From: Cynocephalus volans
Taxonomy: Eukaryota > Chordata > Mammalia > Dermoptera > Cynocephalidae
Assembly (NCBI RefSeq): GCF_027409185.1
Contig: NC_084461.1
Span: 139,359,001-139,423,000 of the forward strand
Direction of reading: 5' to 3'
DNA length: 64,000 bases
Below the pieces are notes generated by a model, which saw nothing but the letters and a program-made list of their open reading frames with translations, searched no databases and was not told the origin of the DNA. The position numbers and the translations under genes are program-made. Every line of letters starts with the position of its first letter. The stretch's first letter is position 1. Below, piece after piece: positions 36,301 through 39,300 of the stretch.

Positions 36301-39300
36301 TCAGCTGAGATCTGGCTGGGAGGCCTTATGATTCTTTCTGCATTCTGCTTTTTTCTTTTCCTGAAGTCCCATATCACGTAAAGAAAGATACAGCCTAGAA
36401 GACAGCGCCTGCTTTAATTTGCAGTATAAATCAGAGCTCACAGGAATAAGAGGGTTAAAGACTGGATTTTACATTGAATCACATTTGCAAAATCACAGCC
36501 TCTTGCCTGGCTCTCCAGAGGCCACCTCAGCCTGCCTTCCCCTCTGGGCAGGATGCCTCATCAGCATCTATCATATATTCAGCCCATTCCACTGCCTCCA
36601 AGACTTGGTCTTTTGGCCCCAGATTTTTAAAATTAAAAATTTGCAGTTTTGTTAAGCCTTTGAGGTTTTTGCAAGAGGATTTCATACTTTGGAATTGAAT
36701 TCCACACTGTCAATTTATTCTAGCATTGGGCACTGCAGGGCTGGGGGAGCGGGGGTCAGACGTGGGAAAGCCCAGCTTGACATTAACAGTGAAGCCCCCA
36801 AAGGTGTGGTGTGGGTGTCAGTAGGCTGGGCCTGGGTGCCACTAACTCCTCAAGGTTAAGGGGAACATAAGTCACCAAGTGGAATCCTGTGGCTTTGCTT
36901 CACTTCTTTTCAAGGCTGGAACTTTTACTTTTCTCTAGAGTTTCCCCAAATGATAACGGGGCTCATCTTGGGAGACACTTAACAAAATCTGCCTTAAGTC
37001 AGCATGAATGAAATGGGAGTAGATTAGAAGAACACAGCCTCTCAACAGATAGGCCTGGGTTTAAGTCCGGCTCTGCTGCTTAATAGCTGGCAGACTTTGG
37101 GAAAATATCATAACCTCCCTGAAACTGAGTTCTCCAGTCTGAAAAATGTTAATACTAAGGGTGTCTATCCTGCAGGGGTCCCTTGGGTCATATAGATGAG
37201 CAGAGCCTGAGTTATAATCCTGGCTCCTTGACCTCTAGCTGGTCTGACTGTGTGAAAAATCACTTAAGCTGTCTAAGCTTCATTTTCTTCATCTGTGAAA
37301 TGGGAGTGATAATAGTCTCAACTTCACAGGGTAATTGTATGGATTGAGATACTGTTATTAAAGTGCATGGCACAGTACCTAGTGCAAGAGAAGCAGAGAG
37401 TAAATACCAGCCTCCCCTCCATGTGTCATGGGCTTTGGCTGGGAGTGGTCTGCCCTCTGGTGTTAGGTGTTATTATGGCTTTAATTACTTTCATGGTGTG
37501 GACTTTCTCAGGAAGACCGCACCCAGCCAGCAAGACTCAGACACTCGCTTGTAGTGCAGAGTTTGGATCAGCAAGGATACTCTAAGCTGGGGAAAATTAG
37601 AGTAGTAAGGATCCTGCAGGCCATTTGGCCCTTGGCCAGCTAGGTGACCTTTGCCTCTTTGGGCTCAGTTGCCTGGAGAGCTGGTTGGAGGCAGGCAAGA
37701 ACCTGTACACTGACTGGAGCTCTTTTTGGTTCCAGACTCACATGGTAGCATCATCAGAAGCAGAAACAAGGGGTCGGCACCAGGCATGCATGGAGGCCTG
37801 CCTCCCCTGGTGGCGAAGGCAGCCGCCCTGGCCCTCCCTCTGCATCTCACGTGCTGTGTTTGCTTCCTTTGCAGCAGCTGCAGGTGGTGCCCCTTTTCGG
37901 CGACATGCAGATAGAGCTGGCCAGATACATTAAGACCAGTGCTCACTATGAAGAGAACAAGTCCAAGTGAGTGCCTGCCGTAATGTCTCTCGGCTCCCGC
38001 GAGGATGCCCAGTCCGGGCAGGGAGCCGAGGGGCCATTTCAGCCCCTCCTCCCTCCCCAGAGCCCTGGGCAGGTGGATTCCGACAGGACACACACGTGCC
38101 GGAGGGAGCCACAGAGGGTGCTCTGAGCCCTTTTGCATCCTCCCTTTGCTGCCAGGTTCAAAAGGGCTCAGAGCACAGTCAGGCCCCTGCCTGGCTCAGC
38201 AGTCACCTGTGTGTCCCCTCAGTGGGACAGCAGTCCTCCTCCTCCTTCCCTTGAAAAGTGGGGAGGATTGGCCAGCCCTCTGTGGCCAGGAGGAGAGAGG
38301 TGGTGCCATCCTTCCTCACCTGATTCTCTCCCCAGGTTTTGTGACCAGGCAGGCAGTAAGTATGTCATGGGATGTACAGTTTAATTGATTCCACCTGTGA
38401 TGAAGGTTGACACCCTCTGCTTGGCCATTTTATAAACCATGATTCTAGGTAATTTATGTTCAGGCCTGGGGTATCAGTGGCTCACAGGAGTTGGGGGTTA
38501 TCTGGCTCCAGCCTCGGCCACCCCTCTGATCTCTGAGGCTGTTAAGAAGGTTCCTTCTGTGTGCATCTCACCCTAAGCTGAGTAGATAAGGCCTTTCCGT
38601 ACGGGGGACCCAGCCATCTTTTAGTCAAAGGCGAGAGCATTAGTGTCCTAAAAAGATATAAATGGAGAGTCCTTGAGTTGCAGCCACCTGGAGCCCCTGC
38701 AAACGAGTCTCCCCAAGGAAAGCTAGTGTAGTGTCTTCAGAACCCTGTGGCCGTTGGTGTGTGGAAAGGTTTTGAAGGAAAATCATGGAGTCAAGGATGC
38801 CGAACCATTTCTGCACTTCTCCCTGTGTGATGACTCGACTGCCTGAAGTTGGTTGGGAGTGGCCCCCTGCTGTGTGACCATGGCAAGGTGTCAGAGGTCT
38901 GGGTGATGGCGTGCCCCATCCCTATGCAAGTAACTCACAGTAGAAGGAGTGCCAGAGTACAGGCCTGAGGAAGGCCATCCCCATTCTGATATTCTTACGA
39001 GAGCCACTTTAGGGCTGCTTTTGGAATACTAAGTTCTCTCCATGATGTTGTTCTGCCTCTTTTGGTGCCCATGTTAGTCTGCTGGGTTACCAGCTCCAGA
39101 TGGCAGAAGGGAGTGAAGGGAGTTTCTTTTTTCTCTTGGGGGAAGGGGAGTGAAGATTTTCATTCTTTCATTTCTTCTCCAATCAGGATGATCTTCCTAA
39201 TGACATCTTTCAAGAAAGAGTTGAGGAGAAAGAAGAGAGGAGTGGGAAAGGACGAGAGAGAGTGGAGAGAGACAGAAGGAGGGCGGGAAGGAAGGAAGAG

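Follow-up and report, generated by a model that had tools for sequence, protein, structure and literature searches.

The CYFIP2 exon and its Lys320 codon

The window, that is, the whole 64-kb stretch of DNA analysed here, carries on its forward strand a CYFIP2 coding exon (37875..37966), the ninth counted from the ATG exon, which encodes residues 301-330 and two bases of codon 331; this codon is split at the exon end (37966), and its third base opens the next exon. Eight upstream coding exons on the same strand were used for the codon count (18265-18381, 19875-19964, 25842-25919, 27467-27568, 30178-30359, 32173-32269, 33638-33766, and 35954-36058), and the nine joined exons give a stop-free translation with an uninterrupted N-terminus. 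In this joined frame, A37932 is coding base 958 and the first position of codon 320 (AAG, Lys; 37932..37934, + strand), with U as its 5' neighbour and A as its 3' neighbour. The seventh exon has two frame-keeping start sites, of which 33638 leads to codon 320 and the alternative to codon 316. The start at 33638 was chosen for its agreement with residues of the known protein, and codon 320 is preferred over 316 because an independent numbering, obtained by aligning the exon 37875..37966 to CYFIP1 residues 301-331 of PDB 3p8c, also arrives at residue 320. An A-to-G change at A37932 turns AAG into GAG and changes the amino acid.

A second CYFIP gene is present in the same genome, on contig C3. 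It encodes Arg331, as does the CYFIP1 of the PDB entry, and over residues 371-411 it is identical to the CYFIP1 protein, in a segment where the window copy differs. On these two features, the C3 copy is taken as CYFIP1 and the gene in the window as CYFIP2. A preceding reading of the same DNA, made from the letters alone (the sequence-only reading), had likewise named the gene CYFIP2 and placed codon 320 at 37932-37934 (AAG), with which both the exon joining and the PDB alignment agree.

CYFIP2 K320E (K/E) was reportedly described by Levanon et al. in 2005 as an A-to-I site of human, mouse, and chicken. The site in the window shares the gene, the codon, and the base c.958 with this known case; it differs in belonging to another mammal, in being read from DNA, and in having its stem and donor overlap spelled out at the level of single bases. 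The human site has been published as c.A958G, p.K320E (PMC4053846), and A37932 has the same codon and base position. According to previous reports, K320E is edited primarily by ADAR2, with a level that rises from 4% to 75% over mouse brain development (PMC3391646), and a rat study of ADAR2 isoforms gave 82% editing with ADAR2a versus 67% with ADAR2b (PMC5852575). Editing of K320E is also reported to be present in chicken, and Glu320 is genomically encoded in ray-finned fishes, whereas the other vertebrates examined in that report have Lys (PMC4449034). The edited peptide YI[K>E]TSAHYEENK has been listed for brain (PMC12295206).

Several other elements were observed in the window. A palindromic dispersed element lies at 41877-41946 and has relatives at 19441-19530 and 56352-56431, the three copies being 77-81% alike. 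Near 41877-41946, 21 Watson-Crick and two G-U pairs of 24 were counted, and the folding window at 41801 has a z score of -7.6; the element is MITE-like. Two tRNA-like elements with A-rich tails were also noted, one at 13365-13438 on the minus strand, which matched the Rfam tRNA family, and one at about 41336-41484 on the plus strand, which was judged by eye; the Rfam search returned one tRNA-like match only. Both resemble the tRNA-Ile-derived SINEs of colugos (Dermoptera), and seven SINE consensus pieces of other mammals gave no match.

The exon-intron hairpin

The exon arm of the stem (37923..37946, + strand) faces an intron arm, or editing complementary sequence, at 37967..37990 (+), which holds the 5' splice site GTGAGT (37967..37972, +) opposite 37941-37946. 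Counted letter by letter, the two arms make 17 Watson-Crick and two G-U pairs with five mismatches of 24, around a loop of 20 nt (37947-37966). Six Watson-Crick pairs (37927-37932 with 37981-37986) end at A37932. The local minimum-energy fold then has an internal loop (37933-37936 opposite 37978-37980), three pairs between 37937-37939 and 37975-37977, a bulged C37974, and an inner helix between 37940-37947 and 37966-37973. The sequence-only reading had described a gapless 24-nt stem with these pair numbers and this loop, a U 5' of the target A with six perfect pairs ending at it, and a donor paired with 37941-37946. The letter check and the pair list agree on each point, and in 37 of 40 sequence contexts the donor helix is predicted with a mean probability of 0.5 or more.

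The pair 37932-37981 itself exceeds a probability of 0.5 in 31 of the 40 contexts. In a fold of 1.1 kb, its probability was 0.39 with the pair span limited to 100 nt, 0.77 with 150 nt, and 0.70 with 200 nt, and at most 0.06 with limits of 300 nt or longer; the stem is lost in some long folds. Four further pairs after a one-base bulge had also been claimed. Such an outer extension can be drawn between 37919-37922 and 37992-37995 (37919..37995, +), after a bulged C37991, but it is weak and not robust, with a mean probability of 0.00-0.48 over eight contexts. Its competitor is a GC-rich hairpin of nine perfect pairs directly 3' of the editing stem (37990-37998 with 38021-38029; 37990..38029, +), whose own mean probability ranges from 0.01 to 0.98 in eight contexts and is 0.81 in the 1.1-kb context. 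In the spliced RNA, the site is predicted to be unpaired (probability of pairing 0.01-0.17 in four contexts). A 186-base query matched the host genome over 38001-38060 only.

The stem goes beyond chance in its register and its place and not in its strength, as its duplex energy is ordinary. When the first 94 intron bases were dinucleotide-shuffled, none of 5000 versions attained 19 pairs with the exon arm, while the same duplex energy was reached in 71 of 2000 shuffles of these bases, and 13 of 500 shuffles of 37914-37999 folded equally well. Within 2.5 kb, the site has no better partner than the junction arm (-26.4 kcal/mol). This best-partner energy ranks 213 of 366 exonic As within that distance, and a partner as good within 100 nt was found for 63 of 365 exonic As (the site itself counted) and for 105 of 1500 random As, the exon list behind the 366 and 365 having small border errors at some exons. 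An unusually strong duplex was rejected on the basis of these energy ranks. Across the 64 kb, 26 places have a gapless 24-nt stem as good as this one; a single AT repeat at 11.4 kb accounts for six of these, and shuffled 4-kb sequences (n = 40) contained on average 0.2 stems of that grade each.

The synonymous codon choices of the exon arm were also considered. Among 20,000 synonymous variants of 37920-37946, sampled evenly without codon-usage weighting, 0.26% equal the natural arm in their pairing with the first 30 intron bases. In the same test on nine control exons, a set that, like that of the donor-opening test below, leaves out the later exon 50879-51045, one of the nine (27467-27568) was equally extreme. 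For this control exon and the first 30 bases of its intron, 0 of 5000 synonymous variants were as good, and its local fold does not contain that duplex.

CYFIP1 serves as a natural control. In its corresponding exon (contig C3, L024, about 3288-3379), residues 301-330 are identical to those of CYFIP2 and Lys320 is also AAG, with 18 of 92 exon bases differing between the two genes. The codon before Lys320 is ATC in CYFIP1, which gives the AAG a 5' neighbour C in contrast to the U of CYFIP2. The best gapless intron partner of the CYFIP1 arm reaches 14 of 24 pairs in the stretch scanned, compared with 19 of 24 in CYFIP2, where the next best reaches 13. Over about 1.3 kb from the CYFIP1 exon end, no inverted 9-mer within 300 nt and no inducer hairpin were found. 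The CYFIP1 exon arm pairs with the CYFIP2 intron at -19.4 kcal/mol, versus -23.6 kcal/mol for CYFIP2's own arm, and with its own intron at -16.4 kcal/mol; its synonymous test gives 6.2%, so the CYFIP1 junction is not wholly without pairing. Since the same peptide is encoded there without a comparable intron arm, the peptide does not force the stem, which belongs to the CYFIP2 junction.

A candidate editing inducer element

Downstream in the same intron lies a structured domain with 50 pairs over 139 nt (38060..38198, +), a candidate editing inducer element. Within it, 38070-38186 (117 nt) holds 39 pairs and folds at -56.4, compared with a lowest value of -51.4 among 200 shuffles. The core is an 18-bp perfect stem between 38118-38135 and 38159-38176 (38118..38176, +). 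Among the perfect inverted repeats of the window whose arms lie within about 600 nt of each other it is the longest, and its mean probability is at least 0.94 in all 20 contexts that contain it. Among 638 folding windows of 200 bases (30 shuffles each), the one at 38001-38200 is the second most structured (z -7.4); that from 37901, which contains the editing stem, has a z of -2.3. A search with 38060-38200, which gives lower bounds, returned a single host-genome match, the segment itself, and the segment is not an evident repeat.

For Cyfip2, Daniel et al. 2017 (PMC5654063) predicted an editing inducer element on the 3' side, 116 nt long with 47 pairs and 138 nt from the site. Its published position projects to about 38070-38186, and the structured domain found here spans 38060-38198, with a stable stem adjacent to and outside the edited one. 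Both are strong stems located in this intron on the 3' side of the site. They differ in that the published element is a table prediction with a single mention of Cyfip2 in that text (PMC5654063), while the domain described here has between 39 and 50 pairs according to where its borders are set. The stem 38118-38176 is absent from the sequence-only reading and is much stronger than the editing stem. That reading had held that a stronger conserved complementary element elsewhere, if it explained the editing, would refute its proposal; a stronger element does exist, but it pairs with itself and not with the site, for which reason it is read as a helper rather than as a rival partner. It fits the kind of editing inducer element described in the literature, and it may help to recruit the enzyme.

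Editing and its possible coupling to splicing

Very probably, the exon-intron hairpin is the pre-mRNA substrate on which ADAR2 deaminates A37932 and recodes CYFIP2 Lys320 to Glu, as the sequence-only reading had proposed; codon 320 is the known site and, within 2.5 kb, pairs best with the junction arm. That ADAR2 is the enzyme and that this species edits the site are presumed from the mouse, human, and chicken literature. The edited region lies in an imperfect exon-intron duplex (19 of 24 positions paired). ADAR favours a U on the 5' side of its target and a G on the 3' side; U37931 precedes A37932, and the base that follows is A, not the favoured G. In a list of targets among which Cyfip2 appears, most have been reported to form their stem between intron and exon (PMC10984384). 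Against the substrate reading counts a screen that scored Cyfip2 'yes' for stem prediction and 'no' for stem conservation (PMC2831006). Of Tables 3 and 7 in the same source, one gives the Cyfip2 change as K/E and another as Q:R, apparently a slip.

Two other explanations of the complementarity were weighed. A distant intron element might be the true partner and the junction stem incidental, which would agree with the long folds that displace this stem and with other candidate duplexes within 2.5 kb that come near it in energy (-24.9 and -24.8 versus -26.4 kcal/mol). Yet, of the eight top-ranked partners, the junction arm lies closest and has the best energy, the CYFIP1 junction lacks the arm, and the synonymous choices favour it, and we regard a distant partner as quite unlikely. 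Less likely still is a chance complementarity of a GC-rich junction that has no function: similar stems are present at the 26 places mentioned above, and a local duplex as strong is available to 105 of 1500 random As, but the stem falls exactly on a known editing site, and its pair count was matched by none of the 5000 intron shuffles.

If the hairpin is the substrate, the exon arm and the first 24 intron bases would close a short imperfect duplex once the polymerase passes the donor, and with its 20-base loop this hairpin would presumably be the first to form during transcription. The stronger intronic hairpin 38118-38176, about 190 nt downstream, would concentrate ADAR2, which would deaminate A37932 at the end of the six-pair helix. 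Because one arm of the stem is intron, editing must precede the removal of this intron, a point already made by the sequence-only reading and in keeping with a site predicted to be unpaired after splicing. ADAR2 and U1 snRNP may then be rivals for this stretch of RNA, and the editing level would be limited by the time available until splicing.

In Adarb1-null mice, Cyfip2 was reported to be among three of 14 further targets with a significant splicing change, its splicing efficiency going down; Cyfip2 mRNA was more edited than pre-mRNA, and the authors suggested that editing promotes splicing (PMC10984384). The published drop suggests some coupling. The sequence-only reading had ascribed such coupling to opening of the stem by the edit, and here the modelling did not follow it: a G at 37932 freed the donor in none of five contexts. 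With A37932G, donor accessibility stays at 0.12 in three contexts of up to 401 nt and goes from 0.34 to 0.22 and from 0.21 to 0.20 in two longer ones. The donor opening cost is 9.12 kcal/mol with A, 9.15 with G, and 7.46 with an unpairable base. In these calculations G is a stand-in for inosine, which pairs with U more weakly than G does, and C at 37932 represents the extreme, unpairable case; in the longest context this case raises donor accessibility from 0.21 to 0.34, the model's maximum for the stem-opening idea. The proposal that the edit alone frees the donor was rejected, as neither modelled accessibility nor opening cost showed a gain. Also rejected was a donor pairing special to the CYFIP2 editing exon: among ten other donors, three are costlier to open at 100 nt flanks and seven at 60 or 150 nt, and those at 30359, 36058, and 40007 are costlier in all three contexts.

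If the edit opened the stem and set the donor free, edited transcripts would be spliced in preference to unedited ones, which would account for the Adarb1-null result and for the higher editing of mRNA (PMC10984384). The donor does lie within the stem; with 1.1 kb of context the outer helix becomes weaker on editing (0.56 to 0.12), and an unpairable base increases accessibility there. However, the edit lies in the outer helix and the donor in the inner one, the A-to-G change brings no gain of accessibility in five contexts, and even an unpairable base cuts the cost only to 7.46 kcal/mol; this mechanism is not supported by the modelling, and we think it unlikely. Coupling could instead arise from ADAR2 that sits on the stem and the inducer hairpin and remodels the junction, or from other edits, in the hairpins, that unfold the intron, and so aid splicing, which we advance as a tentative possibility. 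The splicing drop in Adarb1-null mice, taken together with a model in which the single edit does not free the donor, is consistent with this, and there is a precedent in GRIA2 Q/R, where intronic editing permits splicing (PMC4761006). On the other side, the parts of the literature consulted carry no mention of editing within this Cyfip2 intron, and ADAR binding could equally hinder U1, as for GRIA2 R/G (PMC4761006). A direct link between ADAR2 and splicing, if there is any, would more likely run through ADAR2 binding or further edits. The hairpins might also act as an editing-first checkpoint, a rather doubtful proposal, in which the donor is held in the stem until ADAR2 recruited by 38118-38176 clears it; splicing would then depend on ADAR2 independently of recoding, and one module, lacking in CYFIP1, would set both the K320E level and the removal of the intron.

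Among related systems, GRIA2 R/G and FLNA/FLNB resemble CYFIP2 in having an edited exon near the 5' splice site (PMC4761006, PMC10984384). For GRIA2 R/G, the editing complementary sequence is described as lying in the next intron, so that ADAR and U1 can compete (PMC4761006). In GRIA2 R/G and FLNA/FLNB the edited base is at donor position -2 (PMC4761006, PMC10984384), whereas the CYFIP2 site precedes the first intron base by 35 bases and lies in another helix than the donor. A printed base-level CYFIP2 stem was not found in the titles and main-text passages searched. The locus is very probably a known editing site with a known kind of substrate in another mammal, and its newness is confined to details, namely that the donor lies within the stem, that the paralogue provides a control, and that the inducer hairpin is placed at base level; the exact CYFIP2 stem may well be drawn in Levanon 2005 or Riedmann 2008. 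With the base-level model and the CYFIP1 control at hand, the published connection of ADAR2 with Cyfip2 splicing (PMC10984384) could be reduced to a simple minigene test.
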